A stretch of 64,000 nt of DNA from Siphonodentalium dalli (taxonomy: Eukaryota; Mollusca; Scaphopoda; Gadilida; Siphonodentaliidae), in contig CP136064.1 in the NCBI GenBank assembly GCA_032622095.1, positions 128,079,605 through 128,143,604 of the forward strand, written 5' to 3'. Under the pieces are notes generated by a model that saw only the letters and a program-made list of their open reading frames with translations, had not been told where the DNA came from and made no database searches. Within the stretch, counting starts at the first letter, position 1, and each line of letters opens with the position of its first letter. Below, one piece after another: positions 2,525-64,000 of the stretch. The position numbers and the translations under genes were made by a program.

Positions 2525-2619
2525 AACAAGCCCAAGGGCTTTTGTTAAGTTTGCTCCCTTTTTTTTCGCGCCCACTCTTCATTAAGTGTAGAGGGGGGTC
2601 AGACGGGAAGGAATGGAAA

Positions 2620-2673
2620 TATTATAATAATAATAATAATAATAGTAATGATGATGTTATGATAGACAGGAAG

Positions 2674-2726
<53 letters not shown>

Positions 2727-2765
2727 AGGAGTGAAAGAAGACGGACAGAGAGAGAGAGAGAAAAG
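2620..2765. repeat. compound microsatellite (AAT)n-(TA)n-(GA)n
   Basis: An AAT/TAA run is followed by two TA runs split by CATA and then two GA runs. Repeat numbers differ in almost every unit, so this is the easiest tag for telling units apart. Equivalent positions: 10072-10216, 17521-17656, 24956-25094, 34888-35034, 42333-42468, 47667-47800, 53001-53130 and 58324-58466. A CT-rich tract follows about 60 bp downstream in every unit. In unit 4 that tract contains one extra TTTCTCCCCCTC block near 25200. Confidence 0.93.
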
Positions 2766-3257
2766 AACATTAAATTTAACAGTGAAAAAAATGCGTTAAA
2801 TTTTCATGAACACACGGCAGTTGTAGCACTCCTCCTCTCCCTTTCTCCCTCTCTTTCTCCCCCTCACTCACTCTGTATCTCGCTCTGTCTCTCTGACCTC
2901 AGCAGATTCATAAATTTTCTACGATTATTAAAATCATCATTATCATGTTATACATATCCTGTCATTCATATCATGTACTCTTCAACTTGGCCTCTTACCC
3001 TCTGCTCTTCTTATATAGTCAATGTCTTTTTCTTTTCTGATGAGATAACTCAACATAAGTGATGACTCGATTGTTGTTAAATCCTCTTCAACCTCATCTA
3101 TTCTAAATTATGTCATAAATAAACATTTGTAAAAAAAATATTATATATGTTCTTTGAGGGTAGAATTAAATATTGTTTAAACCAGACCTGTGCAAACTAA
3201 GTGAGGCATACCATGACTAATTAATATTTCAACTCAATGGAACCAAAATTGTCACTT

Positions 3258-3960
3258 GGTCTGAAAATGGCTGCCAAGATGGCGACCAAACATGGGAAAT
3301 GGTAAATATTGACTCAGCATGCCATGTAATCGCTTACAAGTTGTGGTCGATGAATAAAATTGGCTATTCTGTCTTATATACTTTAAATTCTAACATTTCT
3401 GATGCACACTGGTTAAGTGTTAACAATGTGACCACTGAAATTACCAGAATTATTGGATTTTTCTATCACAAACTTAACATAAAAATTGGCAAAAATTTAC
3501 TTTTCAGGTTTTGGCCATTTATTCAAGTAAATGGAAGTATCTTTGGTATCAGAGATGTTTATTGTTTTAATCTGTCTTAAATGCGTCACACGAATGTGTT
3601 TTTAGACAAAATTACTCAAGGTGGCTTCCAAAATGGCAACCAATTTGGTAAAACCAAAAAAGATGATTTTTGTTACATATATCCCGAACATTATTCTGTT
3701 CCCAAGAGTTAGAAAATTATAACTCACTTGTTTATTACCATGTTGTGCTTAATCCAATGACTACTACATGTTTCATTCTCTGAGGCATGACAAATTCCTT
3801 TTAAATGATATACTGCAGTATGGAATTTTGTCAAAAATGTCTTCTGGGACTCTGGCCATATTTTTGAACGGAAATAGGCAGAACGTCTAAACGAAATTGA
3901 GTGAAACCATATTATGTGGCTACTCTCGACAATTAGCATGAACATCAACTTAATATATGG
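3258..3960. repeat. 0.7-kb element, copy A
   Basis: This segment is related in direct orientation to about 6510-7560 of the same unit. Shared landmarks, in order, are GATGAATAAAATTGGCTATTC, TTGGATTTT..TCACAAACTT, ATTACTCAAGRTGGCTTCC, ACATATATCC and GGCATGACAAATTC. By eye the two copies are roughly 70-75% alike, far more diverged than unit-to-unit homologues. The duplication therefore predates amplification of the array. The open frames inside it are not conserved between copies A and B, so I treat it as non-coding repeat. Confidence 0.8.
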
Positions 3961-3984
3961 TGTATGTTTTTTTGCCGAATAACC

Positions 3985-5790
3985 CTAAAATGTCAATGTC
4001 AAGATCCATGACGAATTTCATAATGATCCTATCAAAGGTACGTCTTGTAGCCTTTGCCAAAGGATTTAGTCATGCAAAGAGTAAAATCCAAGATTGCTGC
4101 CATGCTTTATGGCCGAATGACCCCAACATGACTCGTTTCCATCTACATGTCAATGTCAACGCCCATGACAAATTTCATAATGATCCAACCAAAGGTATGA
4201 CCTGTAGCCCGTGCCAAAGGATTTAGTCAGGCAAAGAGTAAAATCCAAGATGGCTGCCAGCGGCCATGTTTTATGGCCGAATGACCCCAAAATGAATTGT
4301 TCCCATCAGAGATCAGCTGAGATCAGTCTCCTACCCAGGATTAACCGCTGCCCGCGCCCATATGTTGCCCGCGCCCACACGTATTGCGAAGAAATGTCTC
4401 ATTTATGTATTTGAGACGTTTGTAGGTTACAATTCATTCTGCATTATTCTGAGAAGCTGAACAGCCCAAATTCATTTGAAAATTGTCTAGATCAAGTTAG
4501 AATGAATTACAACTGACAAAACGCATCAATAAACGAAAGTGTCAATGACAATGTAGCTCAACTTGGAAAGGGACTAATTTCATGTGTTACAGTCAATGGA
4601 GCGATAGAAATGCGGAAAGTTGAAATGTCTAAGTAATATCAGATTATCAACATGAAGATATATACATGTATATATATAAAGTAAAATCCAAGATGGTTGC
4701 TGACAGCCGTATGTTTTTGAATGCAACTAAAAAACATTTGATAGCTTCCATCTAGTAAATCAATATCAAGATTAATATGAAGTTTGATGATGATCCGCTG
4801 AGGGGAGTGGAATGTAGGGTGTGCGAAAGGATTTAGTCATGCAGAGAGTAAAATCCAAGATGGCTGCCAGCTGACATGTTTTATGGTCGAATGACCCCAA
4901 AATGACTCGTTTCCCATTTACGTGTCAATGTTAACATCCATGATGATCAGACGAAAACTCCGGCCTGTAGCCCGTGCTAATGGATTGAATTTTGAAATCC
5001 AAGATGCCGCTGGCGGCCATATTGTTTTGCCGAATGATCCCAAATTGACTCGTTCCCATCTACATGTCAAGAGCCATGACAAATTTCATAATGATCAGAC
5101 CAAAGGTACGACTCACTTGTAGCCTGTGCCAAATGATTTAGTCGTGCAAAGAGAAAATCCAAGATTGCTGCCAGCGGCCATATTTTATGGTCGAATGACC
5201 CCAACATGACTCGTTCCCATTTACATGTCAATGTCAACGCCCATGACAAATTTCATAATGATCCGACCAAAGGTATGACCTGGAGCCCGTGCCAAAGGAT
5301 TTAGTCAGGCGAAGAGTAAAATCCAAGATGGCTGTGAGCGGCCATGTTTTGTGGCCGAATGACCCCAAAATAACTTGTTCCCATCTACATGTCATTGTTA
5401 ACATCCATGACACATTTCATTATTATCAGACCAAAGGTATGACCTGCAGCCCATACCAAACAATTTAGTCATGCAAAGAGTAAAATACAAGATGGCTGCC
5501 GGCGGCCATATTTTATGGCTGATCGACCCCAAAATTACTCGTTCCCATCTACATGTCAATATTAACATCCATGACAAATTTCATGATGGTCAGACAAACA
5601 GTAGGACCTGTATCCCGTGCTAATCGATTGAATTTTGAATTCCAAGATGGCCGCTGGCAGCCATTTTTTTTTCTCGAATGACCCCAAAATGACTCGTTCC
5701 CATCTACATGTCAATGTCAACAGCTATGACAAATTTTATAATGATCCGACCAAAGGTACGACCTGTAGCCCGTGCTAAAGGAAATTGTTG
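3985..5790. repeat. diverged 145-165-bp satellite block with GCCAT palindromes
   Basis: About nine degenerate tandem copies can be aligned on CCAAGATGGC-type anchors at 4088, 4245, 4688, 4855, 4999, 5159, 5323, 5488 and 5642 (spacings mostly 144-167). A ~370-bp unrelated insertion lies between the second and third. Each copy carries a palindrome such as CGGCCATGTTTTATGGCCG, then GAATGACCCCAAAATGACTCG, ATCTACATGTCAATGT and CATGACAAATTTCATAATGATC. Equivalent blocks: about 11439-13244, 18879-20688, 26330-28140 and 28807-30612 (unit 4, twice), 36257-38062 and 59694-61502. Units 6-8 keep only the last copies, about 43137-43384, 48469-48716 and 53799-54046. The 66-89-residue open frames here are by-products of the repeat. 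Confidence 0.88.
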
Positions 5791-6024
5791 ACGAATCACA
5801 CTCGCACAGATACACGCACGACGGATACCAAGCCATGACAATAGCTCAAACTCTACAAAGTAAAGTTGAGCTAAAAATGTTATATTTAATTAAGAAAAGA
5901 CACACACCGGCAGCGTTCGGACATCGCGTTGCGAGGGGACTGCACTCTGTTTTGCCGCAGCTTGCGATTTTCGCTGGCGTCATGCCCAGCTTGTTGACCA
6001 TTGAACACGGGGGAGTAGAGTCTG

Positions 6025-6121
6025 AGCTGCATATAGACCCCTCCCATATGTGGATTTTGTGTGTGATTATGATATATGTGTAGAACTGTATCAGTGCTTC
6101 ATTTGCCGGTTGTTTGCCATC
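6025..6121 (+). repeat. inverted-repeat arm 1 (97 bp)
   Basis: This stretch, from AGCTGCATATAG to CCGGTTGTTTGCCATC, matches the reverse complement of 7853-7955 with a few substitutions and small indels. Both arms end sharply at GCCATC; beyond it the sequences are unrelated. It is present in every unit. Confidence 0.75.
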
Positions 6122-6509
6122 TGGCTATTGGGGCTTTCTAGAGTTGTCGGTCATTGAATCCAAGATGGCCGCCGAAACTGAATATCTGACTTGGTAAATT
6201 TTAATCAGCAAGTAATCAGGAAGATTGTGAGGTTATAGCTATTAAGTCGTGCGATATGTCATTATATTACTAATTGAATACACCATATTTATTGGTATGA
6301 ATAAATTTCATATATTCAAAATGGCCGCCAAAATGGTCACCGGAAGTGTACAATGGCGCTTTTTCAGTAATATTTTCTAGATCACTTTTTGTTGTTTGAA
6401 ACTGGTTAAGAATTGTTACTTTGTTTTTGCATTGTTTATATTTTCTGGTCATTGGGGCAATGAAATAAGACATTCTTGGTGTCCCTTACGATCCGTCAAT
6501 AATTTGATT

Positions 6510-7560: not shown

Positions 7561-7830
7561 ATGGAGGCCATGGTGGCAGCCAGGTAGTTACTGTATGGTC
7601 ATAGGTGGTGTGAATAGGAATACAAGGAGTTGTTTTATGGTCACGAATGATGTTAATAGATATACAAGGGGTGGTCATGATTGGGGTGTCCATTGTGAGA
7701 TGCATGAGATACACGTAGTTGCTGGATGGTCATGTGTGAGGTGAAGATGTGGTGTGACTGTATGCATGGTTGCATGGTTATGTGTGGATGCACGGGTATA
7801 CACGATGTGACTGTACATGGTCATCTATAT
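7545..7830. repeat. degenerate minisatellite (about 43 bp period)
   Basis: ATGGTCA-type words followed by GTGGTGTGAATAGG or ATGATGTTAATAG and ATACAAGG recur at roughly 43-bp spacing, then decay into TGCATGGTT/GTGTGGATG variants. It is present in all nine units just downstream of the nanos 3' end. No coding signal was found. Confidence 0.55.
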
Positions 7831-7852
7831 GTTGTTTATGTATATATGTAGT

Positions 7853-7955
7853 GATGGCAAACAACCGGCAAATTGAGGGACTGATATAGTTATACAAGGA
7901 TATCATAACCACACAAAAAACCCGCAAATGGTGGAGGGGGGCTATATATGCAGCT
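7853..7955 (-). repeat. inverted-repeat arm 2 (103 bp)
   Basis: This is the reverse-complement partner of 6025-6121. The arms are about 1.7 kb apart and roughly 80% alike by eye. They could be two opposite insertions of one short dispersed element, or the ends of a dead DNA transposon. No target-site duplication could be recognised. Confidence 0.75.
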
Positions 7956-8286: not shown

Positions 8287-8868
8287 TCACATGAAGGATC
8301 GGGTATTTCCGCCGTAGTTTTGAGGACAGTACTTGATTGTGTGAGAATCGTCGCCTGTCTTCCTGCAGATAGGACAAACGTACCGTCTCAGAATGGGACA
8401 CGTGGTTTTGCCGGCCGAGTTCTTCAGCACGTGGCAGGAGTACACTTCTACGTCTTCGCCGTTGTTTCTGCAGAACACGCACAGAGGCTTTCTTGTCTTC
8501 TTGTTCTTAGACGCCACATATTCCTGGAGAACGTCACCGGAACACTGAACGTCACTTTCGTCGAGCGAGAGAAGTGTTGCGTCGAGGGTTTTGTAACTTC
8601 GTGCGGCTGACTGATACACGTCGAAATCATCGAGGTCGGTTTCAATGCCGTTGCGACGAAATTCGTCGTATGCGTTGCATCTTGCGTTGTCGAGCTCCAG
8701 CAGATCGTTGGTGTGGTCGATGGTAGTAGGCATCGTTGCTGATATGTCCTTGAGAATTGTGAACGGACTGTCAATGACGGTTGTCTTGCTTTCAGCTCTT
8801 GGAACGTAATTTCCGAATGGGTTCAAACTAACGAACATTTCTTCGTTATCATCAAGGAAGAATTCCAT
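8287..8868 (-). CDS. nanos: Nanos zinc-finger protein, copy 1 (193 aa)
   Basis: Nanos proteins bind RNA with Pumilio and recruit deadenylases to silence mRNAs in germ-cell precursors. The C-terminal part has the complete tandem CCHC Nanos finger: C130-x2-C133-x12-H146-x10-C157-x7-C165-x2-C168-x7-H176-x4-C181, with the family motifs TCPILR and HTIKYCP. The N-terminal ~125 residues are acidic and low in similarity. An [10 protein letters not shown] stretch at 12-21 might be a divergent NOT1-interacting motif, but this is weak. The gene is one exon. I chose the ATG at 8868 because it follows a TATA/initiator promoter at the right distance and has A at -3 and G at +4. The same frame stays open for 84 more codons, but those lie across and upstream of the promoter. 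This copy alone has N8; others have T8. It has C145 next to ligand H146. Confidence 0.96.
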
Positions 8869-9246: not shown

Positions 9247-10127
9247 TTATACACAGTTGCACACACATATCTAATATTGTTGCAATATAAAATATAAAAA
9301 AGACGTGATTATGAATATATTATTCGAAAAAACATATTTAACAAATAAAAAAAAATAAAAAACCTCATTGTGTATGAGCAGTTTGATAACAAAGCACATG
9401 ACACTGAGATGATATATATATGTCTCTCATAATTATGCATGTACGTCTTTGCTGTTCCATTTGATTTATTACACTTTTGTGAATTTTTCCAACTGTGAAC
9501 TTCAAATTAGTGGAGTAGATTAAGTCCAAATTTCAAAGCAATTGTTCAATTTGTAACTAAAGCATGAAAATTTGCACATATGTACATGTTCACATACTAA
9601 TTGATATTGGATATGGAGCCACGCTGAAATATAACGTTAACACCTCTTTTAAGGGGTTTTCCGAATTTAAAGAGCGTTTCGTGATTATATAATTTATTAA
9701 ATGTCGCAATTAATCGTACCATGAAATACGTGATTTAAAATTCGGCATATACATTAAGTATGATTATGCGATATATAATGTCACATTTTTGGGGTAAAAT
9801 TGTAACTCCCATCAAGATGGCCGTAAAAATGGTAGCCGTAAGTGGATTTTTTTTTTCACTAATATCTTAATGTAAACATATTTTATTCCAATCATAATAA
9901 CATATATACATTTGACAAAGTGTTGACAATAAAAACAGAATAGGATAAATGATTGTTGGATTGGAAAAGGGATTAAACAACAAGCCCAAGGGCTTTTGTT
10001 AAGTTTGCTCCCTTTTTTTTCGCGCCCACTCTTCATTAAGTGTAGAGGGGGGTCAGACGGGAAGGAATGGAAATATTATAATAATAATAATAATAATAGT
10101 AATGATGATGTTATGATAGACAGGAAG

Positions 10128-10180
<53 letters not shown>

Positions 10181-13100
10181 AGGAGTGAAAGAAGACGGAC
10201 AGAGAGAGAGAGAGAAAAGAACATTAAATTTAACAGTGAAAAAAATGCGTTAAATTTTCATGAACACACGGCAGTTGTAGCACTCCTCCTCTCCCTTTCT
10301 CCCTCTCTTTCTCCCCCTCACTCACTCTGTATCTCGCTCTGTCTCTCTGACCTCAGCAGATTCATAAATTTTCTACGATTATTAAAATCATCATTATCAT
10401 GTTATACATATCCTGTCATTCATATCATGTACTCTTCAACTTGGCCTCTTACCCTCTGCTCTTCTTATATAGTCAATGTCTTTTTCTTTTCTGATGAGAT
10501 AACTCAACATAAGTGATGACTCGATTGTTGTTAAATCCTCTTCAACCTCATCTATTCTAAATTATGTCATAAATAAACATTTGTAAAAAAAATATTATAT
10601 ATGTTCTTTGAGGGTAGAATTAAATATTGTTTAAACCAGACCTGTGCAAACTAAGTGAGGCATACCATGACTAATTAATATTTCAACTCAATGGAACCAA
10701 AATTGTCACTTGGTCTGAAAATGGCTGCCAAGATGGCGACCAAACATGGGAAATGGTAAATATTGACTCAGCATGCCATGTAATCGCTTACAAGTTGTGG
10801 TCGATGAATAAAATTGGCTATTCTGTCTTATATACTTTAAATTCTAACATTTCTGATGCACACTGGTTAAGTGTTAACAATGTGACCACTGAAATTACCA
10901 GAATTATTGGATTTTTCTATCACAAACTTAACATAAAAATTGGCAAAAATTTACTTTTCAGGTTTTGGCCATTTATTCAAGTAAATGGAAGTATCTTTGG
11001 TATCAGAGATGTTTATTGTTTTAATCTGTCTTAAATGCGTCACACGAATGTGTTTTTAGACAAAATTACTCAAGGTGGCTTCCAAAATGGCAACCAATTT
11101 GGTAAAACCAAAAAAGATGATTTTTGTTACATATATCCCGAACATTATTCTGTTCCCAAGAGTTAGAAAATTATAACTCACTTGTTTATTACCATGTTGT
11201 GCTTAATCCAATGACTACTACATGTTTCATTCTCTGAGGCATGACAAATTCCTTTTAAATGATATACTGCAGTATGGAATTTTGCCAAAAATGTCTTCTG
11301 GGACTCTGGCCATATTTTTGAACGGAAATAGGCAGAACGTCTAAACGAAATTGAGTGAAACCATATTATGTGGCTACTCTCGACAATTAGCATGAACATC
11401 AACTTAATATATGGTGTATGTTTTTTTGCCGAATAACCCTAAAATGTCAATGTCAAGATCCATGACGAATTTCATAATGATCCTATCAAAGGTACGTCTT
11501 GTAGCCTTTGCCAAAGGATTTAGTCATGCAAAGAGTAAAATCCAAGATTGCTGCCATGCTTTATGGCCGAATGACCCCAACATGACTCGTTTCCATCTAC
11601 ATGTCAATGTCAACGCCCATGACAAATTTCATAATGATCCAACCAAAGGTATGACCTGTAGCCCGTGCCAAAGGATTTAGTCAGGCAAAGAGTAAAATCC
11701 AAGATGGCTGCCAGCGGCCATGTTTTATGGCCGAATGACCCCAAAATGAATTGTTCCCATCAGAGATCAGCTGAGATCAGTCTCCTACCCAGGATTAACC
11801 GCTGCCCGCGCTCATATGTTGCCCGCGCCCACACGTATTGCGAAGAAATGTCTCATTTATGTATTTGAGACGTTTGTAGGTTACAATTCATTCTGCATTA
11901 TTCTGAGAAGCTGAACAGCCCAAATTCATTTGAAAATTGTCTAGATCAAGTTAGAATGAATTACAACTGACAAAACGCATCAATAAACGAAAGTGTCAAT
12001 GACAATGTAGCTCAACTTGGAAAGGGACTAATTTCATGTGTTACAGTCAATGGAGCGATAGAAATGCGGAAAGTTGAAATGTCTAAGTAATATCAGATTA
12101 TCAACATGAAGATATATACATGTATATATATAAAGTAAAATCCAAGATGGTTGCTGACAGCCGTATGTTTTTGAATGCAACTAAAAAACATTTGATAGCT
12201 TCCATCTAGTAAATCAATATCAAGATTAATATGAAGTTTGATGATGATCCGCTGAGGGGAGTGGAATGTAGGGTGTGCGAAAGGATTTAGTCATGCAGAG
12301 AGTAAAATCCAAGATGGCTGCCAGCTGACATGTTTTATGGTCGAATGACCCCAAAATGACTCGTTTCCCATTTACGTGTCAATGTTAACATCCATGATGA
12401 TCAGACGAAAACTCCGGCCTGTAGCCCGTGCTAATGGATTGAATTTTGAAATCCAAGATGCCGCTGGCGGCCATATTGTTTTGCCGAATGATCCCAAATT
12501 GACTCGTTCCCATCTACATGTCAAGAGCCATGACAAATTTCATAATGATCAGACCAAAGGTACGACTCACTTGTAGCCTGTGCCAAATGATTTAGTCGTG
12601 CAAAGAGAAAATCCAAGATTGCTGCCAGCGGCCATATTTTATGGTCGAATGACCCCAACATGACTCGTTCCCATTTACATGTCAATGTCAACGCCCATGA
12701 CAAATTTCATAATGATCCGACCAAAGGTATGACCTGGAGCCCGTGCCAAAGGATTTAGTCAGGCGAAGAGTAAAATCCAAGATGGCTGTGAGCGGCCATG
12801 TTTTGTGGCCGAATGACCCCAAAATAACTTGTTCCCATCTACATGTCATTGTTAACATCCATGACACATTTCATTATTATCAGACCAAAGGTATGACCTG
12901 CAGCCCATACCAAACAATTTAGTCATGCAAAGAGTAAAATACAAGATGGCTGCCGGCGGCCATATTTTATGGCTGATCGACCCCAAAATTACTCGTTCCC
13001 ATCTACATGTCAATATTAACATCCATGACAAATTTCATGATGGTCAGACAAACAGTAGGACCTGTATCCCGTGCTAATCGATTGAATTTTGAAATCCAAG

Positions 13101-15521
13101 ATGGCCGCTGGCAGCCATTTTTTTTTCTCGAATGACCCCAAAATGACTCGTTCCCATCTACATGTCAATGTCAACAGCTATGACAAATTTTATAATGATC
13201 CGACCAAAGGTACGACCTGTAGCCCGTGCTAAAGGAAATTGTTGACGAATCACACTCGCACAGATACACGCACGACGGATACCAAGCCATGACAATAGCT
13301 CAAACTCTACAAAGTAAAGTTGAGCTAAAAATGTTATATTTAATTAAGAAAAGACACACACCGGCAGCGTTCGGACATCGCGTTGCGAGGGGACTGCACT
13401 CTGTTTTGCCGCAGCTTGCGATTTTCGCTGGCGTCATGCCCAGCTTGTTGACCATTGAACACGGGGGAGTAGAGTCTGAGCTGCATATAGACCCCTCCCA
13501 TATGTGGATTTTGTGTGTGATTATGATATATGTGTAGAACTGTATCAGTGCTTCATTTGCCGGTTGTTTGCCATCTGGCTATTGGGGCTTTCTAGAGTTG
13601 TCGGTCATTGAATCCAAGATGGCCGCCGAAACTGAATATCTGACTTGGTAAATTTTAATCAGCAAGTAATCAGGAAGATTGTGAGGTTATAGCTATTAAG
13701 TCGTGCGATATGTCATTATATTACTAATTGAATACACCATATTTATTGGTATGAATAAATTTCATATATTCAAAATGGCCGCCAAAATGGTCACCGGAAG
13801 TGTACAATGGCGCTTTTTCAGTAATATTTTCTAGATCACTTTTTGTTGTTTGAAACTGGTTAAGAATTGTTACTTTGTTTTTGCATTGTTTATATTTTCT
13901 GGTCATTGGGGCAATGAAATAAGACATTCTTGGTGTCCCTTACGATCCGTCAATAATTTGATTTTTACAGAACGCCAAAATAGCCGCCAAAATATGGAAA
14001 ATTGTGAAGATTTCCGCGGTGTACCCTGCAAATCGCTTTGTTGTGGTTGATGAATAAAATTGGCTATTCTACATTACCAACATGTCTGTTGCACATTGGT
14101 TAATTGTTAGTATTGTAACTACTGGCATTGCCATAAATATTGGATTTTACTCTCACAAACTTGACAATCGGCAAAAATTCACTTTCATGTTTGGACTATT
14201 AAAATGTAACTAACTTTGGTATGAAATGTGTTTATTGTTTTGAACTATTTTAAATGTGTCAAACCAAATTACTCAAGATGGCTTCCAAAATGTCAACCAA
14301 CTTGGGTAAAATGTTCATTTTTCACATATATCCGGAACATAATATTATTCTCTGCTGTTCCGAAAAGTTAGCAAACTGTGACTCACTTGGTTACTATGCA
14401 TGTTAGGTCATCAACTGACAACTAAATATTCTACCTGATTGTCTGAGTTCCTTATGAGGGTGGCGAACCCCCCCCCCTACCTCCGGAATCCGGCTTAAAA
14501 CTTACCCCGGCATCCGGAATACTCCATAAAAGAGAGACGGCATCCGGCATACACTTTCTTCTCAAATGATACGAGGAATTAAATCGTGCGTGTTAAAACG
14601 CAACATGTGGTGCCTAGCTATATTTACCATTTCTAACCGATTCTATTCAATCAATGTAACTTTTCCACTATTCTAGTGTGGTGCACTCGGCGTTATACAA
14701 ACTAACGTAGATTATCAACGTTTTAACCCGTCAAGCAGATGCCAGGTGGAAGTCAACTCTATCGGGGAATATAGCAAACCACAGGTCATCATTACGATCT
14801 ATTTGAACACTAATATTATTAGTCACCCTCCCTCATATGGGGCATGACAAATTCATTTTAAAATTGCAATATGGAATTTGGCTGAAAACCTCTTTTGGGA
14901 TTATGGCCATATTTTGAAAGGAAATTGGCAGAATCGAAACTGAGATGAACCACAATATGTGGCTATTTTGGCCCATTTGGATCAAAATGGATCAACTTGA
15001 TACAAGGGCTATGGAGGCCATGGTGGCAGCCAGGTAGTTACTGTATGGTCATAGGTGGTGTGAATAGGAATACAAGGAGTTGTTTTATGGTCACGAATGA
15101 TGTTAATAGATATACAAGGGGTGGTCATGATTGGGGTGTCCATTGTGAGATGCATGAGATACACGTAGTTGCTGGATGGTCATGTGTGAGGTGAAGATGT
15201 GGTGTGACTGTATGCATGGTTGCATGGTTATGTGTGGATGCACGGGTATACACGATGTGACTGTACATGGTCATCTATATGTTGTTTATGTATATATGTA
15301 GTGATGGCAAACAACCGGCAAATTGAGGGACTGATATAGTTATACAAGGATATCATAACCACACAAAAAATCCGCAAATGGTGGAGGGGGGCTATATATG
15401 CAGCTAAATCGCACCCAATCAACTATAGCCAATTCCCAAAACTGCTGCTTCAGAACAAGTTAGTGTTTTTTTTTTGGGATTTGCAATAAAACGAGAGATA
15501 TATAATAAGAGAAAGATCACA

Positions 15522-15736: not shown

Positions 15737-16318
15737 TCACATGAAGGATCGGGTATTTCCGCCGTAGTTTTGAGGACAGTACTTGATTGTGTGAGAATCG
15801 TCGCCTGTCTTCCTGCAGATAGGACAAACGTACCGTCTCAGAATGGGACACGTGGTTTTGCCGGCCGAGTTCTTCAGCACGTGGCAGGAGTACACTTCTA
15901 CGTCTTCGCCGTTGTTTCTGCAGAACACGCACAGAGGCTTTCTTGTCTTCTTGTTCTTAGACGCCACATATTCCTGGAGAACGTCACCGGAACACTGAAC
16001 GTCATTTTCGTCGAGCGAGAGAAGTGTTGCGTCGAGGGTTTTGTAACTTCGTGCGGCTGACTGATACACGTCGAAATCATCGAGGTCGGTTTCAATGCCG
16101 TTGCGACGAAATTCGTCGTATGCGTTGCATCTTGCGTTGTCGAGCTCCAGCAGATCGTTGGTGTGGTCGATGGTAGTAGGCATCGTTGCTGATATGTCCT
16201 TGAGAATTGTGAACGGACTGTCAATGACGGTTGTCTTGCTTTCAGCTCTTGGAACGTAATTTCCGAATGGGTTCAAACTAACGAACATTTCTTCGGTATC
16301 ATCAAGGAAGAATTCCAT
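15737..16318 (-). CDS. nanos: Nanos zinc-finger protein, copy 2 (193 aa)
   Basis: This is a full-length intact copy with all eight zinc ligands. It differs from copy 1 by N8 to T8 and by S105 to N105, the latter unique to this copy and lying in the acidic linker ahead of the finger. C145 and R190 are as in copy 1. The start was chosen on the same promoter and context grounds; the upstream open frame is leader and promoter. Confidence 0.95.
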
Positions 16319-23169: not shown

Positions 23170-23751
23170 TCACATGAAGGATTGGGTATTTCCGCCGTAG
23201 TTTTGAGGACAGTACTTGATTGTGTGAGAATCGTCGCCTGTCTTCCTGCAGATAGGACAAACGTACCGTCTCAGAATGGGACACGTGGTTTTGCCGGCCG
23301 AGTTCTTCAGCACGTGGCTGGAGTACACTTCTACGTCTTCGCCGTTGTTTCTGCAGAACACGCACAGAGGCTTTCTTGTCTTCTTGTTCTTAGACGCCAC
23401 ATATTCCTGGAGAACGTCACCGGAACACTGAACGTCACTTTCGTCGAGCGAGAGAAGTGTTGCGTCGAGGGTTTTGTAACTTCGTGCGGCTGACTGATAC
23501 ACGTCGAAATCATCGAGGTCGGTTTCAATGCCGTTGCGACGAAATTCGTCGTATGCGTTGCATCTTGCGTTGTCGAGCTCCAGCAGATCGTTGGTGTGGT
23601 CGATGGTAGTAGGCATCGTTGCTGATATGTCCTTGAGAATTGTGAACGGACTGTCAATGACGGTTGTCTTGCTTTCAGCTCTTGGAACGTAATTTCCGAA
23701 TGGGTTCAAACTAACGAACATTTCTTCGGTATCATCAAGGAAGAATTCCAT
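23170..23751 (-). CDS. nanos: Nanos zinc-finger protein, copy 3 (193 aa)
   Basis: This copy is intact and full length with all zinc ligands. It has T8, S145 in place of C145, and Q190 in place of R190. It is the first copy from the left with Ser before the first ligand His, the state of copies 5-8. It still lacks the extra Thr codon of those copies, so it is intermediate between the left and right groups. Confidence 0.95.
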
Positions 23752-25047: not shown

Positions 25048-25732
25048 GAGAGAGAGAAGGAGTGAAAGAAGACGGAAAGAGAGAGAGAGAGAGAAAAGAA
25101 CATTAAATTTAACAGTGAAAAAAATGCGTTAAATTTTCATGAACACTCGGCAGTTGTAGCGCTCCTCCTCTCCCTTTCTCCCTCTCTTTCTCCCCCTCTT
25201 TCTCCCCCTCACTCACTCTGTATCTCGCTCTGTCTCTCTGACCTCAGCAGATTCATAAATTTTCTACGATTATTAAAATCATCATTATCATGTTATACAT
25301 ATCCTGTCATTCATATCATGTACTCTTCAACTTGGCCTCTTACCCTCTGCTCTTCTTATACAGTCAATGTCTTTTTCTTTTCTGATGAGATAACTCAACA
25401 TAAGTGATGACTCGATTGTTGTTAAATCCTCTTCAACCTCATCTATTCTAAATTATGTCATAAATAAACATTTGTAAAAAAAATATTATATATGTTCTTT
25501 GAGGGTAGAATTAAATATTGTTTAAACCAGACCTGTGCAAACTAAGTGAGGCATACCATGACTAATTAATATTTCAACTCAATGGAACCAAAATTGTCAC
25601 TTGGTCTGAAAATGGCTGCCAAGATGGCGACCAAACATGGGAAATGGTAAATATTGACTCAGCATGCCATGTAATCGCTTACAAGTTGTGGTCGATGAAT
25701 AAAATTGGCTATTCTGTCTTATATACTTTAAA

Positions 25733-28209
25733 TTCTAACATTTCTGATGCACACTGGTTAAGTGTTAACAATGTGACCACTGAAATTACCAGAATTATTG
25801 GATTTTTCTATCACAAACTTAACATAAAAATTGGCAAAAATTAACTTTTCAGGTTTTGGCCATTTATTCAAGTAAATGGAAGTATCTTTGGTATCAGAGA
25901 TGTTTATTGTTTTAATCTGTCTTAAATGCGTCACACGAATGTGTTTTTAGACAAAATTACTCAAGGTGGCTTCCAAAATGGCAACCAATTTGGTAAAACC
26001 AAAAAAGATGATTTTTGTTACATATATCCCGAACATTATTCTGTTCCCAAGAGTTAGAAAATTATAACTCACTTGTTTATTACCATGTTGTGCTTAATCC
26101 AATGACTACTACATGTTTCATTCTCTGAGGCATGACAAATTCCTTTTAAATGATATACTGCAGTATGGAATTTTGCCAAAAATGTCTTCTGGGACTCTGG
26201 CCATATTTTTGAACGGAAATAGGCAGAACGTCTAAACGAAATTGAGTGAAACCATATTATGTGGCTACTCTCGACAATTAGCATGAACATCAACTTAATA
26301 TATGGTGTATGTTTTTTTGCCGAATAACCCTAAAATGTCAATGTCAAGATCCATGACGAATTTCATAATGATCCTATCAAAGGTACGTCTTGTAGCCTTT
26401 GCCAAAGGATTTAGTCATGCAAAGAGTAAAATCCAAGATTGCTGCCATGCTTTATGGCCGAATGACCCCAACATGACTCGTTTCCATCTACATGTCAATG
26501 TCAACGCCCATGACAAATTTCATAATGATCCAACCAAAGGTATGACCTGTAGCCCGTGCCAAAGGATTTAGTCAGGCAAAGAGTAAAATCCAAGATGGCT
26601 GCCAGCGGCCATGTTTTATGGCCGAATGACCCCAAAATGAATTGTTCCCATCAGAGATCAGCTGAGATCAGTCTCCTACCCAGGATTAACCGCTGCCCGC
26701 GCCCATATGTTGCCCGCGCCCACACGTATTGCGAAGAAATGTCTCATTTATGTATTTGAGACGTTTGTAGGTTACAATTCATTCTGCATTATTCTGAGAA
26801 GCTGAACAGCCCAAATTCATTTGAAAATTGTCTAGATCAAGTTAGAATGAATTACAACTGACAAAACGCATCAATAAACGAAAGTGTCAATGACAATGTA
26901 GCTCAACTTGGAAAGGGACTAATTTCATGTGTTACAGTCAATGGAGCGATAGAAATGCGGAAAGTTGAAATGTCTAAGTAATATCAGATTATCAACATGA
27001 AGATATATACATGTATATATATAAAGTAAAATCCAAGATGGTTGCTGACAGCCGTATGTTTTTGAATGCAACTAAAAAACATTTGATAGCTTCCATCTAG
27101 TAAATCAATATCAAGATTAATATGAAGTTTGATGATGATCGGCTGAGGGGAGTGGAATGTAGGGTGTGCGAAAGGATTTAGTCATGCAGAGAGTAAAATC
27201 CAAGATGGCTGCCAGCTGACATGTTTTATGGTCGAATGACCCCAAAATGACTCGTTTCCCATTTACGTGTCAATGTTAACATCCATGATGATCAGACGAA
27301 AACTCCGGCCTGTAGCCCGTGCTAATGGATTGAATTTTGAAATCCAAGATGCCGCTGGCGGCCATATTTTTTTGCCGAATGATCCCAAATTGACTCGTTC
27401 CCATCTACATGTCAAGAGCCATGACAAATTTCATAATGATCAGACCAAAGGTACGACTCACTTGTAGCCTGTGCCAAATGATTTAGTCGTGCAAAGAGAA
27501 AATCCAAGATTGCTGCCAGCGGCCATATTTTATGGCCGAATGACCCCAACATGACTCGTTCCCATTTACATGTCAATGTCAACGCCCATGACAAATTTCA
27601 TAATGATCCGACCAAAGGTATGACCTGGAGCCCGTGCCAAAGGATTTAGTCAGGCGAAGAGTAAAATCCAAGATGGCTGTGAGCGGCCATGTTTTGTGGC
27701 CGAATGACCCCAAAATGACTTGTTCCCATCTACATGTCATTGTTAACATCCATGACACATTTCATTATTATCAGACCAAAGGTATGACCTGCACCCCATA
27801 CCAAACAATTTAGTCATGCAAAGAGTAAAATACAAGATGGCTGCCGGCGGCCATATTTTATGGCTGATCGACCCCAAAATTACTCGTTCCCATCTACATG
27901 TCAATATTAACATCCATGAAAAATTTCATGATGGTCAGACAAACAGTAGGACCTGTATCCCGTGCTAATCGATTGAATTTTGAAATCCAAGATGGCCGCT
28001 GGCAGCCATTTTTTTTTCTCGAATGACCCCAAAATGACTCGTTCCCATCTACATGTCAATGTCAACAGCTATGACAAATTTTATAATGATCCGACCAAAG
28101 GTACGACCTCTAGCCCGTGCTAAAGGAAATTGTTGACGAATCACACTCGCACAGATACACGCACGACGGATACCAAGCCATGACAATAGCTCAAACTCTA
28201 CAAAGTAAA
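25733..28209. repeat. unit 4 tandem duplication, left copy (2477 bp)
   Basis: This copy spans the right part of element copy A and the whole satellite block. It ends at CTACAAAGTAAA, where the sequence jumps back to TTCTAACATTTCTG. The left and right breakpoints share TAAA, a 4-bp microhomology. The jump removes the stretch that normally follows (GTTGAGCTAAAAATG) from this copy only. Confidence 0.93.
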
Positions 28210-30686
28210 TTCTAACATTTCTGATGCACACTGGTTAAGTGTTAACAATGTGACCACTGAAATTACCAGAATTATTGGATTTTTCTATCACAAACTTAAC
28301 ATAAAAATTGGCAAAAATTAACTTTTCAGGTTTTGGCCATTTATTCAAGTAAATGGAAGTATCTTTGGTATCAGAGATGTTTATTGTTTTAATCTGTCTT
28401 AAATGCGTCACACGAATGTGTTTTTAGACAAAATTACTCAAGGTGGCTTCCAAAATGGCAACCAATTTGGTAAAACCAAAAAAGATGATTTTTGTTACAT
28501 ATATCCCGAACATTATTCTGTTCCCAAGAGTTAGAAAATTATAACTCACTTGTTTATTACCATGTTGTGCTTAATCCAATGACTACTACATGTTTCATTC
28601 TCTGAGGCATGACAAATTCCTTTTAAATGATATACTGCAGTATGGAATTTTGCCAAAAATGTCTTCTGGGACTCTGGCCATATTTTTGAACGGAAATAGG
28701 CAGAACGTCTAAACGAAATTGAGTGAAACCATATTATGTGGCTACTCTCGACAATTAGTATGAACATCAACTTAATATATGGTGTATGTTTTTTTGCCGA
28801 ATAACCCTAAAATGTCAATGTCAAGATCCATGACGAATTTCATAATGATCCTATCAAAGGTACGTCTTGTAGCCTTTGCCAAAGGATTTAGTCATGCAAA
28901 GAGTAAAATCCAAGATTGCTGCCATGCTTTATGGCCGAATGACCCCAACATGACTCGTTTCCATCTACATGTCAATGTCAACGCCCATGACAAATTTCAT
29001 AATGATCCAACCAAAGGTATGACCTGTAGCCCGTGCCAAAGGATTTAGTCAGGCAAAGAGTAAAATCCAAGATGGCTGCCAGCGGCCATGTTTTATGGCC
29101 GAATGACCCCAAAATGAATTGTTCCCATCAGAGATCAGCTGAGATCAGTCTCCTACCCAGGATTAACCGCTGCCCGCGCCCATATGTTGCCCGCGCCCAC
29201 ACGTATTGCGAAGAAATGTCTCATTTATGTATTTGAGACGTTTGTAGGTTACAATTCATTCTGCATTATTCTGAGAAGCTGAACAGCCCAAATTCATTTG
29301 AAAATTGTCTAGATCAAGTTAGAATGAATTACAACTGACAAAACGCATCAATAAACGAAAGTGTCAATGACAATGTAGCTCAACTTGGAAAGGGACTAAT
29401 TTCATGTGTTACAGTCAATGGAGCGATAGAAATGCGGAAAGTTGAAATGTCTAAGTAATATCAGATTATCAACATGAAGATATATACATGTATATATATA
29501 AAGTAAAATCCAAGATGGTTGCTGACAGCCGTATGTTTTTGAATGCAACTAAAAAACATTTGATAGCTTCCATCTAGTAAATCAATATCAAGATTAATAT
29601 GAAGTTTGATGATGATCGGCTGAGGGGAGTGGAATGTAGGGTGTGCGAAAGGATTTAGTCATGCAGAGAGTAAAATCCAAGATGGCTGCCAGCTGACATG
29701 TTTTATGGTCGAATGACCCCAAAATGACTCGTTTCCCATTTACGTGTCAATGTTAACATCCATGATGATCAGACGAAAACTCCGGCCTGTAGCCCGTGCT
29801 AATGGATTGAATTTTGAAATCCAAGATGCCGCTGGCGGCCATATTTTTTTGCCGAATGATCCCAAATTGACTCGTTCCCATCTACATGTCAAGAGCCATG
29901 ACAAATTTCATAATGATCAGACCAAAGGTACGACTCACTTGTAGCCTGTGCCAAATGATTTAGTCGTGCAAAGAGAAAATCCAAGATTGCTGCCAGCGGC
30001 CATATTTTATGGCCGAATGACCCCAACATGACTCGTTCCCATTTACATGTCAATGTCAACGCCCATGACAAATTTCATAATGATCCGACCAAAGGTATGA
30101 CCTGGAGCCCGTGCCAAAGGATTTAGTCAGGCGAAGAGTAAAATCCAAGATGGCTGTGAGCGGCCATGTTTTGTGGCCGAATGACCCCAAAATGACTTGT
30201 TCCCATCTACATGTCATTGTTAACATCCATGACACATTTCATTATTATCAGACCAAAGGTATGACCTGCACCCCATACCAAACAATTTAGTCATGCAAAG
30301 AGTAAAATACAAGATGGCTGCCGGCGGCCATATTTTATGGCTGATCGACCCCAAAATTACTCGTTCCCATCTACATGTCAATATTAACATCCATGAAAAA
30401 TTTCATGATGGTCAGACAAACAGTAGGACCTGTATCCCGTGCTAATCGATTGAATTTTGAAATCCAAGATGGCCGCTGGCAGCCATTTTTTTTTCTCGAA
30501 TGACCCCAAAATGACTCGTTCCCATCTACATGTCAATGTCAACAGCTATGACAAATTTTATAATGATCCGACCAAAGGTACGACCTCTAGCCCGTGCTAA
30601 AGGAAATTGTTGACGAATCACACTCGCACAGATACACGCACGACGGATACCAAGCCATGACAATAGCTCAAACTCTACAAAGTAAA
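28210..30686. repeat. unit 4 tandem duplication, right copy (2477 bp)
   Basis: This copy is nearly identical to 25733-28209. Both copies carry the private variants GGCAAAAATTAAC, CTGCACCCCATACC and CATGAAAAATTTCATG, so the duplication is young. They differ at 26281 against 28758 (GCATGAAC, GTATGAAC); unit 5 also has the GTATGAAC form. Confidence 0.93.
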
Positions 30687-33099: not shown

Positions 33100-33681
33100 T
33101 CACATGAAGGATCGGGTATTTCCGCCGTAGTTTTGAGGACAGTACTTGATTGTGTGAGAATCGTCGCCTGTCTTCCTGCAGATAGGACAAACGTACCGTC
33201 TCAGAATGGGACACGTGGTTTTGCCGGCCGAGTTCTTCAGCACGTGGCAGGAGTACACTTCTACGTCTTCGCCGTTGTTTCTGCAGAACACGCACAGAGG
33301 CTTTCTTGTCTTCTTGTTCTTAGACGCCACATATTCCCGGAGAACGTCACCGGAACACTGAACGTCACTTTCGTCGAGCGAGAGAAGTGTTGCGTCGAGG
33401 GTTTTGTAACTTCGTGCGGCTGACTGATACACGTCGAAATCATCGAGGTCGGTTTCAATGCCGTTGCGACGAAATTCGTCGTATGCGTTGCATCTTGCGT
33501 TGTCGAGCTCCAGCAGATCGTTGGTGTGGTCGATGGTAGTAGGCATCGTTGCTGATATGTCCTTGAGAATTGTGAACGGACTGTCAATGACGGTTGTCTT
33601 GCTTTCAGCTCTTGGAACGTAATTTCCGAATGGGTTCAAACTAACGAACATTTCTTCGGTATCATCAAGGAAGAATTCCAT
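33100..33681 (-). CDS. nanos: Nanos zinc-finger protein, copy 4 (193 aa)
   Basis: This copy is intact and full length with an unaltered finger. It has T8, C145 and R190 like copy 2, plus a private Q115 to R115 just before the basic KNKKTRK segment (121-127) that leads into the finger. Its C145/R190 state between copy 3 (S/Q) and copy 5 (S/Q) breaks any left-to-right gradient and points to shuffling. Confidence 0.95.
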
Positions 33682-40543: not shown

Positions 40544-41127
40544 TCACATGAAGGATTGGGTATTTCCGCCGTAGTTTTGAGGACAGTACTTGATTGTGTG
40601 AGAATCGTCGCCTGTCTTCCTGCAGATAGGACAAACGTACCGTCTCAGAATGGGACACGTGGTTTTGCCGGCCGAGTTCTTCAGCACGTGGCTGGAGTAC
40701 ACTTCTACGTCTTCGCCGTTGTTTCTGCAGAACACGCACAGAGGCTTTCTTGTCTTCTTGTTCTTAGACGCCGCATATTCCTGGAGAACGTCACCGGAAC
40801 ACTGAACGTCACTTTCGTCGAGCGAGAGAAGTGTTTGTCGAGGGTTTTGTAACTTCGTGCGGCTGACTGATACACGTCGAAGTCATCGAGGTCGGTTTCA
40901 ATGCCGTTGCGACGAAATTCGTCGTATGCGTTGCATCTTGCGTTGTCGAGCTCCAGCAGATCGTTGGTGTGGTCGATGGTAGTAGGCATCGTTGCTGATA
41001 TGTCCTTGAGAATTGTGAACGGACTGTCAATGACGGTTATTGTCCTGCTTTCAGCTCTTGGAACGTAATTTCCGAATGGGTTCAAACTAACGAACATTTC
41101 TTGGGTATCATCAAGGAAGAATTCCAT
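40544..41127 (-). pseudogene. nanos: nanos copy 5, frameshifted before the zinc finger
   Basis: The copy is collinear with an intact nanos but has lost one net base at about 40834-40838 (GTGTTTGTCG where other copies have GTGTTGCGTCG). The predicted protein keeps residues 1-97, then reads 43 foreign residues and stops after 140 aa at 40705, so it has no zinc finger. The finger frame downstream is otherwise intact and has no further lesion. It carries T8, Q9, R28, the extra Thr codon and, past the shift, the codons equivalent to A118, S145 and Q190, as in copy 6. The lesion is either recent or a sequencing error, since the rest shows no decay. Confidence 0.85.
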
Positions 41128-45874: not shown

Positions 45875-46459
45875 TCACATGAAGGATTGGGTATTTCCGC
45901 CGTAGTTTTGAGGACAGTACTTGATTGTGTGAGAATCGTCGCCTGTCTTCCTGCAGATAGGACAAACGTACCGTCTCAGAATGGGACACGTGGTTTTGCC
46001 GGCCGAGTTCTTCAGCACGTGGCTGGAGTACACTTCTACGTCTTCGCCGTTGTTTCTGCAGAACACGCACAGAGGCTTTCTTGTCTTCTTGTTCTTAGAC
46101 GCCGCATATTCCTGGAGAACGTCACCGGAACACTGAACGTCACTTTCGTCGAGCGAGAGAAGTGTTGCGTCGAGGGTTTTGTAACTTCGTGCGGCTGACT
46201 GATACACGTCGAAGTCATCGAGGTCGGTTTCAATGCCGTTGCGACGAAATTCGTCGTATGCGTTGCATCTTGCGTTGTCGAGCTCCAGCAGATCGTTGGT
46301 GTGGTCGATGGTAGTAGGCATCGTTGCTGATATGTCCTTGAGAATTGTGAACGGACTGTCAATGACGGTTATTGTCCTGCTTTCAGCTCTTGGAACGTAA
46401 TTTCCGAATGGGTTCAAACTAACGAACATTTCTTGGGTATCATCAAGGAAGAATTCCAT
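45875..46459 (-). CDS. nanos: Nanos zinc-finger protein, copy 6 (194 aa)
   Basis: This is an intact copy with one extra Thr codon after residue 28 (RTITV in place of KTTV). It has T8, Q9 and R28, Ala for Val at the position of V118, Ser at the position of C145, and Gln at the position of R190. It also carries the only silent CDS change I found, GAT to GAC in the LDDFD segment. All zinc ligands are kept, shifted by one in numbering. Its sequence is that of copy 5 without the frameshift. Confidence 0.95.
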
Positions 46460-51208: not shown

Positions 51209-51793
51209 TCACATGAAGGATCGGGTATTTCCGCCGTAGTTTTGAGGACAGTACTTGATTGTGTGAGAATCGTCGCCTGTCTTCCTGCAGATAGGACAAA
51301 CGTACCGTCTCAGAATGGGACACGTGGTTTTGCCGGCCGAGTTCTTCAGCACGTGGCTGGAGTACACTTCTACGTCTTCGCCGTTGTTTCTGCAGAACAC
51401 GCACAGAGGCTTTCTTGTCTTCTTGTTCTTAGACGCCGCATATTCCTGGAGAACGTCACCGGAACACTGAACGTCACTTTCGTCGAGCGAGAGAAGTGTT
51501 GCGTCGAGGGTTTTGTAACTTCGTGCGGCTGACTGATACACGTCGAAATCATCGAGGTCGGTTTCAATGCCGTTGCGACGAAATTCGTCGTATGCGTTGC
51601 ATCTTGCGTTGTCGAGCTCCAGCAGATCGTTGGTGTGGTCGATGGTAGTAGGCATCGTTGCTGATATGTCCTTGAGAATTGTGAACGGACTGTCAATGAC
51701 GGTTATTGTCTTGCTTTCAGCTCTTGGAACGTAATTTCCGAATGGGTTCAAACTAACGAACATTTCTTGGGTATCATCAAGGAAGAATTCCAT
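51209..51793 (-). CDS. nanos: Nanos zinc-finger protein, copy 7 (194 aa)
   Basis: This copy is intact, with the extra Thr codon (KTITV). It has T8, Q9 and K28, Ala at the V118 position, Ser at the C145 position and Arg at the R190 position. It differs from copy 6 by K28 and by the C-terminal Arg, and lacks the silent GAC variant. The protein is identical to copy 8. Confidence 0.95.
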
Positions 51794-56537: not shown

Positions 56538-57122
56538 TCACATGAAGGATCGGGTATTTCCGCCGTAGTTTTGAGGACAGTACTTGATTGTGTGAGAATC
56601 GTCGCCTGTCTTCCTGCAGATAGGACAAACGTACCGTCTCAGAATGGGACACGTGGTTTTGCCGGCCGAGTTCTTCAGCACGTGGCTGGAGTACACTTCT
56701 ACGTCTTCGCCGTTGTTTCTGCAGAACACGCACAGAGGCTTTCTTGTCTTCTTGTTCTTAGACGCCGCATATTCCTGGAGAACGTCACCGGAACACTGAA
56801 CGTCACTTTCGTCGAGCGAGAGAAGTGTTGCGTCGAGGGTTTTGTAACTTCGTGCGGCTGACTGATACACGTCGAAATCATCGAGGTCGGTTTCAATGCC
56901 GTTGCGACGAAATTCGTCGTATGCGTTGCATCTTGCGTTGTCGAGCTCCAGCAGATCGTTGGTGTGGTCGATGGTAGTAGGCATCGTTGCTGATATGTCC
57001 TTGAGAATTGTGAACGGACTGTCAATGACGGTTATTGTCTTGCTTTCAGCTCTTGGAACGTAATTTCCGAATGGGTTCAAACTAACGAACATTTCTTGGG
57101 TATCATCAAGGAAGAATTCCAT
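56538..57122 (-). CDS. nanos: Nanos zinc-finger protein, copy 8 (194 aa)
   Basis: This copy is intact and predicts the same protein as copy 7: T8, Q9, K28, extra Thr, Ala, Ser and Arg at the variable sites. The differences from copy 7 lie outside the coding sequence, in the leader and the upstream inverted repeat. That makes 7 and 8 a natural pair for testing promoter effects with a constant protein. Confidence 0.95.
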
Positions 57123-58383: not shown

Positions 58384-58419
<36 letters not shown>

Positions 58420-61400: not shown

Positions 61401-63778
61401 ATGACTCGTTCCCATCTACATGTCAATGTCAACAGCTATGACAAATTTTATAATGATCCGACCAAAGGTACGACCTGTAGCCCGTGCTAAAGGAAATTGT
61501 TGACGAATCACACTCGCACAGATACACGCACGACGGATACCAAGCCATGACAATAGCTCAAACTCTACAAAGTAAAGTTGAGCTAAAAATGTTATATTTA
61601 ATTAAGAAAAGACACACACCGGCAGCGTTCAGACATCGCGTTGCGAGGGGACTGCACTCTGTTTTGCCGCAGCTTGCGATTTTCGCTGGCGTCATGCCCA
61701 GCTTGTTGACCATTGAACACGGGGGAGTAGAGTCTGAGCTGCATATAGACCCCTCCCATATGTGGATTTTGTGTGTGATTATGATATATGTGTAGAACTG
61801 TATCAGTGCTTCATTTGCCGGTTGTTTGCCATCTGGCTATTGGGGCTTTCTAGAGTTGTCGGTCATTGAATCCAAGATGGCCGCCGAAACTGAATATCTG
61901 ACTTGGTAAATTTTAATCAGCAAGTAATCAGGAAGATTGTGAGGTTATAGCTATTAAGTCGTGCGATATGTCATTATATTACTAATTGAATACACCATAT
62001 TTATTGGTATGAATAAATTTCATATATTCAAAATGGCCGCCAAAATGGTTACCGGAAGTGTACAATGACGCTTTTTCAGTAATATTTTCTAGATCACTTT
62101 TTGTTGTTTGAAACTGGTTAAGAATTGTTACTTTGTTTTGCATTGTTTATATTTTCTGGTCATTGGGGCAATGAAATAAGACATTCTTGGTGTCCCTTAC
62201 GATCCGTCAATAATTTGATTTTTACAGAACGCCAAAATAGCCGCCAAAATATGGAAAATTGTGAAGATTTCCCCGGTGTACCCTGCAAATCGCTTTGTTG
62301 TGGTTGATGAATAACATTGGCTATTCTACATTACCAACATGTCTGTTGCACATTGGTTAATTGTTAGTATTGTAACTACTGGCATTGCCATAAATATTGG
62401 ATTTTACTCTCACAAACTTGACAATCGGCAAAAATTCACTTTCATGTTTGGACTATTAAAATGTAACTAACTTTGGTATGAAATGTGTTTATTGTTTTGA
62501 ACTATTTTAAATGTGTCAAACCAAATTACTCAAGATGGCTTCCAAAATGTCAACCAACTTGGGTAAAATGTTCATTTTTCACATATATCCGGAACATAAT
62601 ATTATTCTCTGCTGTTCCGAAAAGTTAGCAAACTGTGACTCACTTGGTTACTATACATGTTAGGTCATCAACTGACAACTAAATATTCTACCTGATTGTC
62701 TCAGTTCCTTATGATGGTGACGACCCCCCCCCCCTACCTCCGGAATCCGGCTTAAAACTTACCCCGGCATCCGGAATACTCCATAAAAGAGAGACGGCAT
62801 CCGGCATACACTTTCTTCTCAAATGATACGAGGAATTAAATCGTGCGTGTTAAAACGCAACATGTGGTGCCTAGCTATATTTACCATTTCTAACCGATTC
62901 TATTCAATCAATGTAACTTTTCCACTATTCTAGTGTGGTGCACTCGGCGTTATACAAACTAACGTAGATTATCAACGTTTTAACCCGTCAAGCAGATGCC
63001 AGGTGGAAGTCAATTCTATCGGGGAATATAGCAAACCACAGGTCATCATTACGATATATTTGAACACTAATATTATTAGTCACCCTCCCTCATATGGGGC
63101 ATGACAAATTCATTTTAAAATTGCAATATGGAATTTGGCTGAAAACCTCTCTTGGGATTATGGCCATATTTTGAAAGGAAATTGGCAGACTCGAAACTGA
63201 GATGAACCACAATATGTGGCTATTTTGGCCCATTTGGATCAAAATGGATCAACTTGATACAAGAGCTATGGAGGCCATGGTGGCAGCCAGGTAGTTACTG
63301 TATGGTCATAGGTGGTGTGAATAGGAATACAAGGAGTTATTTTATGGTCACGAATGATGTTAATAGATATACAAGGGGTGGTCATGATTGGGGTGTCCAT
63401 TGTGAGATGCATGAGATACACGTAGTTGCTGGATGGTCATGTGTGAGGTGAAGATGTGGTGTGACTGTATGCATGGTTGCATGGTTATGTGTGGATGCAC
63501 GGGTATACACGATGTGACTGTACATGGTCATCTATATGTTGTTTATGTATATATGTAGTGATGGCAAACAACCGGCAAATTGAGGGACTGATATAGTTAT
63601 ACAAGGATATCATAACCACACAAAAAAATCCGCAAATGGTGGAGGGGGGCTATATATGCAGCTAAATCGCACCCAATCAACTATAGCCAATTCCCAAAAC
63701 TGCTGCTTCAGAACAAGTTAGTGTTTTTTTTTTGGATTTGCAATAAAACGAGAGATATATAATAAGAGAACGATCACA

Positions 63779-63784
63779 TTTATT
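63779..63784 (-). terminator. poly(A) signal, nanos copy 9
   Basis: AATAAA on the minus strand, 210 nt past the stop codon at 63994. Confidence 0.7.
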
Positions 63785-63993
63785 ACTGAAAATATAAACA
63801 TCATTCATTCATATAACATTGACATAATATATAACATTGGTTCCATGCAAGGAATCAGTTCAATCACATGTAGTAAGCACTATACATATATGCTCACTGG
63901 CAAGCACGGGAACGGATTTGCACTATATTGAATACATTTTTGGTGTACGGTTGAGACGTACAAGTATGAGTCACTTCAGTCTCAGTAATAGAA

Positions 63994-64000
63994 TCACATG
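63994..64000 (-). CDS. nanos: nanos copy 9, last codons only (cut by window edge)
   Basis: The stop codon (63994-63996) and the final Met codon (63997-63999) are present and are preceded by the standard 3'UTR with its hairpin and poly(A) signal. Whether the rest is intact cannot be seen. Confidence 0.8.

Follow-up and report, generated by a model that had tools for sequence, protein, structure and literature searches.

Nanos is a germline switch that most animals carry in one or a few copies. The window analysed here, a stretch of 64,000 nucleotides (C4:128079605-128143604 of an assembly of 2.227 Gb in 9 contigs), holds a row of nanos genes and raises the question of how far this gene has been multiplied in the genome and whether its many copies matter to the host.

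The nanos array in the window

The nine consecutive same-strand nanos units claimed by the initial annotation were borne out, with eight loci lying head to tail on the minus strand and a ninth entering the window only by its last codon and stop. Seven of the eight are intact and encode 193 aa (8287..8868, which is intronless, 15737..16318, 23170..23751 and 33100..33681) or 194 aa (45875..46459, 51209..51793 and 56538..57122), while the fifth in order (~40547..41127) is frameshifted, its start half and finger half lying in different frames and giving two half matches. The ninth copy (63994..64000 within the window, also on the minus strand) otherwise falls just outside and has an open frame of 194 aa. 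The copies share one orientation and recur with a regular period, as in a tandem gene array, with ATG-to-ATG steps of 7450, 7433, 9930, 7446, 5332, 5334 and 5329 bp. The 9930-bp step contains a partial-unit duplication (25729..30686), in which 25729-28209 and 28206-30686 (2.48 kb) are 99.96% identical by self-comparison, and the 5.33-kb units correspond to the 7.45-kb unit minus ~2.1 kb. Unit-to-unit identity reached 98.3-99.4% for aligned pieces of at least 5 kb (self-comparison, among 70 of 85 pieces). The spacers carry a 164/328-bp minisatellite, of which 12285..13233 is one of seven such stretches in the window.

Self-comparison and genome search place the in-window part of the array (2525..64000) in the second of two blocks, at C4:127.867-127.939 and 128.088-128.152 Mb, which extend outside the window and together comprise 18 loci (17 open and 1 frameshifted). 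A gap of 100 N at 2425-2524 lies directly 5' of the array start at 2525, so that the array is cut off on the left by a scaffolding gap rather than by a natural border. On the 5' side of this gap, outside the array, a perfect 34-bp tandem repeat of 3.1 copies was found at 1327-1432. At the other end (C4:128144100-128164000), the right array edge is followed by an open frame of 867 aa, the start of which reads as a transposon protein of endonuclease/reverse-transcriptase type.

The C4 spacer also has a piece of a dispersed repeat, present on C1, C3, C5, C6, C7, C8 and C9 as well (among 40 scored of 20563 candidates). Carriage of nanos by a transposon is nevertheless unlikely, since this repeat sits in the spacer. 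Compared with the loci fetched from other contig regions, the window unit had no match in those at C1:129 Mb or C1:97 Mb, and only minisatellite-type matches in that at C1:103 Mb. Note that a spacer piece of ~115 bp (window 9979-10094) recurs at 85-91% identity, 1.3-3 kb upstream of nanos genes in three loci of another subfamily; this piece may be a transposon end, and it counts against a full dismissal of transposon carriage.

Nanos loci across the assembly

Extending the search to the whole assembly yielded ~268 nanos finger loci (171 + 56 + 18 + 23, from pattern and search counts), a sum that includes a frame-broken stray copy on C2 and other broken copies, and that leaves out copies with more than 3 mismatches to the pattern or outside the scored lists. 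The tandem amplification of at least nine copies noticed initially was therefore real, but its size was understated. All 150 scored matches of a zf-nanos profile search (of 349 candidates) were above the cut-off, and the window nanos protein used as a query gave 294 candidates, of which 150 were scored; since these scored lists cover part of the candidates, the two largest groups were counted by sequence patterns. The finger type of an array at C1:129 Mb, searched with a 38-base pattern, gave 171 forward and 0 reverse matches. Among the 100 matches listed, 99 fell at C1:129.37-129.70 Mb, ~3.0 kb apart, and 1 on C2, and the pattern was also present in three copies read at C1:129.76, 129.83 and 129.87 Mb. 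The finger type of another array, at C1:103 Mb, gave 54 reverse matches at C1:103.256-103.395 Mb, 2.5 kb apart, and 2 forward matches at C1:97.1 Mb. Reversed-pattern controls of both types gave 0 matches. The 23 other loci, found by profile and protein search, are located on C6 (2), C4:88.8-92.7 Mb (6), C3 (1), C4:249.7-250.5 Mb (6), C5:18.5-18.8 Mb (3), C5:23.7 Mb (2), C5:249 Mb (2) and C2:48.9 Mb (1).

Several of these places show local peculiarities. Between C1:129393154 and 129415533 most steps are of 2.99 kb, but two of 5.18 kb, separated by 17.16 kb, point to duplication of a block of several units. The stray frame-broken copy of C1:129 type is found at C2:141673000-141674000. At C1:97109000-97118900, a direct repeat of 4.65 kb bears two identical nanos genes, each 3' of a truncated nanos start of 50 codons. 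A second nanos-like start also lies ~470 bp 3' of the stop of a C6 nanos gene, and this dispersed locus seems to be locally duplicated too.

In a tree of 32 nanos proteins, each array had partners of its own: the two dispersed C6 genes joined the C4 array (97/97), the C1:97 genes joined the C1:103 array (100/99) and the C5:18 genes joined the C1:129 array (100/98); 11 of the 28 inner branches of this tree were starred, and long-branch effects may account for some of its deep joins. With the arrays falling into three subfamilies, tandem amplification probably occurred at least three times, separately. All nanos groups examined have at least two copies, except for the single gene at C2:48.85 Mb.

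Such copy numbers could also be produced by false haplotype duplication or mis-joined contigs. Gaps of 100 N touch the C4 and C1:103 arrays, and near-identical stretches (99.3-99.4% over 16-18 kb) could be allelic, so that false duplication of part of the arrays is possible. As an explanation of the amplification as a whole, an assembly artefact is very improbable: the units vary in length and are set apart by substitutions and indels, 65 of the 71 steps in the C1:129 array measured 2.88-3.01 kb (72 of the 99 listed places checked), and a single error is unlikely to have produced arrays from three subfamilies. In a tree of the C4 array (2 of 15 inner branches starred), a fork (96/95) united all copies but the two rightmost of block 1, which argues in the same direction; the window copies intermixed with copies from the left end of block 1. 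That the two blocks are alternative haplotypes is made less likely by the 1.5 kb of right flank compared from block 1, which matched the right flank of block 2 only in scattered pieces of 77-85%; the left edge of block 2 is the gap. A true number of one or two copies, which the initial annotation had named as the case against itself, is therefore unlikely given the three subfamilies involved and the diagnostic variants, which in the C4 array include codons 9, 30, 122, 149 and 194, even with N gaps touching two arrays.

A very large and repeated tandem nanos amplification in this assembly is thus well supported, and nanos would be, on its sequence, a high-copy family here, on a scale different from the one to few copies usual in animals. 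Vertebrates have Nanos1-3, with some extra nanos1 copies (PMC5932020). In the open literature, a corpus with most subscription journals outside it, the papers listed by searches contained, by title and start of abstract, no report of nanos copy number or expansion of this kind.

Other families were searched in the same assembly. Repeats of Pumilio, the partner protein of nanos, were found at 1 locus (C9:169.63-169.65 Mb, among 150 scored of 221 candidates), Argonaute/Piwi domains at 4 loci (24 of 24 candidates scored), and a homeobox query gave 58 matches (136 of 136 scored), some of them in equal-scoring pairs, the largest local group noticed being four within 47 kb. No array like those of nanos was present among the Pumilio, Piwi and homeobox matches; among the families tested, the amplification is therefore a property of nanos. 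Arrays of telomere repeats were absent at the two contig starts examined.

Gene structure, protein features and selection

In each array family, the repeated unit comprises a whole compact intronless gene of 193-210 codons, and most of the copies read encode both CCHC nanos fingers. The C4 and C6 genes are 88-94% identical from -300 to +800 of the ATG and align poorly outside. A TATA-like box lies 114 bp (C4), 70 bp (C1:103) and 109 bp (C1:129) before the ATG; such a box was found within -130 to -40 in 9 of 18 loci, including all three array families, against ~2 expected from shuffles (summed rates), the 18 loci including related ones and so not being independent. The sister gene at C1:97 had no TATA-like box. 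An AATAAA or ATTAAA signal was present within 600 bp 3' in 16 of 18 loci (a plain count, with no shuffle control), and within ~210 bp of the stop in the three array families.

By their sequence, the encoded proteins belong to the Nanos family. Two window copies matched Pfam zf-nanos (PF05741) with 83.3 and 83.4 bits (cut-off 27, E ~1e-23), and the finger matched the solved structures 5kl1, 5kl8 and 3alr (E ~2e-15), which we take to be Drosophila and zebrafish Nanos. Both CCHC zinc sites were complete in 16 of the 17 open C4 copies, in all 13 sampled C1:129 copies, in 9 of the 11 sampled C1:103 copies and in all 25 others. With their two CCHC fingers, these scores and structure matches and a small intronless gene, the loci resemble known Nanos genes; they differ in their number, ~268 against one to a few, and in that the window subfamily is without a recognisable CNOT1-interacting motif.

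The source describing this motif gives F1, W4, D6, Y7 and L10 as its near-invariant residues, and reports its loss from a number of phyla as well as recruitment of CCR4-NOT by Drosophila Nanos in its absence (PMC4003280). A motif present in some phyla only does not define all Nanos proteins, and its absence does not mean lost function, given the phylum losses and the motif-free recruitment by Drosophila Nanos. We scored it in one representative per group, over the first 70 residues and against 2000 shuffles. Like known Nanos proteins, the representatives of C1:103, C1:97 and C2:48.85 carry 4 of the 5 key residues, a score reached by 5, 0 and 2 of the 2000 shuffles, respectively. That of C5:23 carries 3 of 5, which is not beyond chance (284 of 2000), and those of the C4 array (2 of 5; 1789 of 2000) and the C1:129 array (2 of 5; 1740 of 2000) remained at shuffle level, as did that of C4:249. 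The row scored for C5:249 was truncated at its beginning and is left out of this comparison. A motif search in the PDB with 40-aa peptides gave no match among chains of at least 20 residues. The C4, C1:129 and C4:249 subfamilies are thus without a recognisable CNOT1 motif, and may use another repression route or modulate the nanos proteins that bear it.

Comparisons between related groups differ in outcome from those within arrays. Ten C4 copies against the two C6 genes gave dN 0.043 and dS 0.199 (ratio 0.22), and five C1:103 copies against the two C1:97 genes also gave a dN/dS of 0.22. Three small clusters evolve under purifying selection, with ratios of 0.32 (C4:249), 0.36 (C4:88-90 with C3) and 0.31 (C5:18), each with p < 0.001. 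Among the 17 open copies of the C4 array, 22 nonsynonymous and 6 synonymous changes were found (ratio 1.01, p = 1; the pairwise ratio is 1.8 when ten copies are used), and 10 nonsynonymous changes and 1 synonymous change separate the two C6 genes (ratio 2.7). This neutral ratio and the 10:1 changes in C6 give no sign of present constraint on the C4/C6 subfamily. The ratio was 0.51 both within C1:129 (13 copies, 16 nonsynonymous and 9 synonymous changes, p 0.15) and within C1:103 (11 copies, 8 and 4 changes, p 0.28), neither being significant. Nanos genes thus seem, from sequence comparison, to be held by selection in the longer term, with single C4 copies now free to drift.

Broken copies also occur. 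One of the 18 C4 loci is frameshifted and one of the 17 open ones is without a zinc ligand. In the C1:103 array, 52 of the 54 loci keep their frame open across the 129 residues matched, in one case as far as an N gap, and frames are shortened at two; two of the 11 sampled copies are without a zinc ligand, a share biased upward by the lower-scoring matches in this sample, from which some copies, including these two, were drawn. All 13 sampled C1:129 copies are full length, the sample being 13 of ~170 copies and mostly of well-matching ones, and some others have frames of only 138-182 aa. Sampling left out the C1:103 copy cut by an N gap and the fourth copy of the fetched C1:129 stretch, cut at its end.

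Possible explanations: total output, neutral turnover or germline conflict

We are moderately inclined to explain these observations by a nanos amplification of which the total output matters, a reading that joins arrays, crossing-over and dosage and in which dosage is the conjectural step. Unequal crossing-over between repeats is the likely route by which the arrays were enlarged, and exchange between units would keep the copies alike. The array proteins would bind mRNA via their conserved finger, with Pumilio, present here at one locus, as their probable partner. If their copies are transcribed, the arrays would multiply nanos-type mRNA in germ cells or early embryos. Since single C4 copies look dispensable, total output is what counts, if anything.

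The main rival to such an output-driven amplification is neutral, satellite-like turnover, by which unequal crossing-over without benefit would have spread mostly redundant passengers, kept alike by exchange, while a few dispersed copies do the work. The neutral ratio obtained from the 17 open copies of the C4 array, the frameshifted copy and lost zinc ligands, the spacer-rich C4 units with their dispersed-repeat and minisatellite parts, and the frame-broken stray copy on C2 are all consistent with it. We nevertheless hold it to be less likely, as arrays arose in three subfamilies and the other nanos groups examined (bar C2:48.85) are multi-copy, while Pumilio and Piwi form no such arrays among the matches scored; in addition, the open C1:103 loci, the full-length C1:129 copies (mostly well-matching ones) and purifying selection on the three small clusters argue against mere passengers.

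Known systems provide two points of comparison. Histone gene clusters and other high-dosage tandem arrays consist of compact intronless genes with a TATA box, arranged head to tail and kept alike, and the nanos arrays share this compact, intronless and head-to-tail organisation, a TATA-like box and the likeness of copies. Unlike histones, nanos is a regulatory translational repressor and not a bulk structural product, its arrays have polyadenylation signals, and a demand for dosage is presumed. Stellate, Slx/Sly and DAZ are ampliconic germline families in tandem arrays with some broken copies, and nanos likewise belongs to a germline gene class found here in tandem with some broken copies; in contrast to them, its three arrays come from as many subfamilies of a single RNA-binding family, and the likeness concerns the genes alone, not sex linkage or drive.

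This second likeness suggests that the arrays could be ampliconic germline genes in conflict, through meiotic drive, competition between sex chromosomes or an arms race against parasites of the germline, as in known amplified families expressed in testis. What is known of the family as a germline gene class would fit, as would expansions in three divergent subfamilies and the fact that, in two array families out of three, no CNOT1 motif is recognisable. This seems quite unlikely to us, with the arrays on two contigs (C1 and C4) rather than on one candidate sex chromosome, and with no array ratio clearly above neutrality.

Returning to the total-output reading, we tentatively propose, as a less secure extension, that nanos exists here as a high-copy family of more than 250 loci, with partly CNOT1-motif-free proteins made from macrosatellite-like arrays, and that these could add a layer of translational repression, based on dosage, to germ cells or early embryos, subject to satellite-like birth and decay. 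Hundreds of nanos copies offer a natural test of germline translational repression under extreme dosage, tolerated or used. The same genome bears on whether nanos works without the CNOT1 motif, and its arrays on whether germline RNA regulators turn selfish or satellite-like.

The initial annotation had framed such output in sea-urchin terms, with small micromeres as the site of expression, which does not fit this genome. The homeobox at C7:77.88 Mb ends in KKENNLAKLTGP, with the KLTGP signature that we take to be the Lox5 signature of spiralians, and its neighbours on C7 presumably are of labial, Hox3, Dfd, Scr, Lox4 and Lox2 types. A sea urchin or other echinoderm origin is not supported, given this signature and these spiralian-type neighbouring homeoboxes. 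Judged by PMC4003280, the presence of the CNOT1 motif in some copies is a weak hint towards a mollusc rather than an annelid. Molluscan hemocyanin (PF14830) had no match, a result of little weight because its controls matched nowhere. The spiralian-type Hox cluster spans C7:77.30-78.82 Mb and contains two diverged, equal-scoring central-class homeoboxes at 77.673 and 77.720 Mb.
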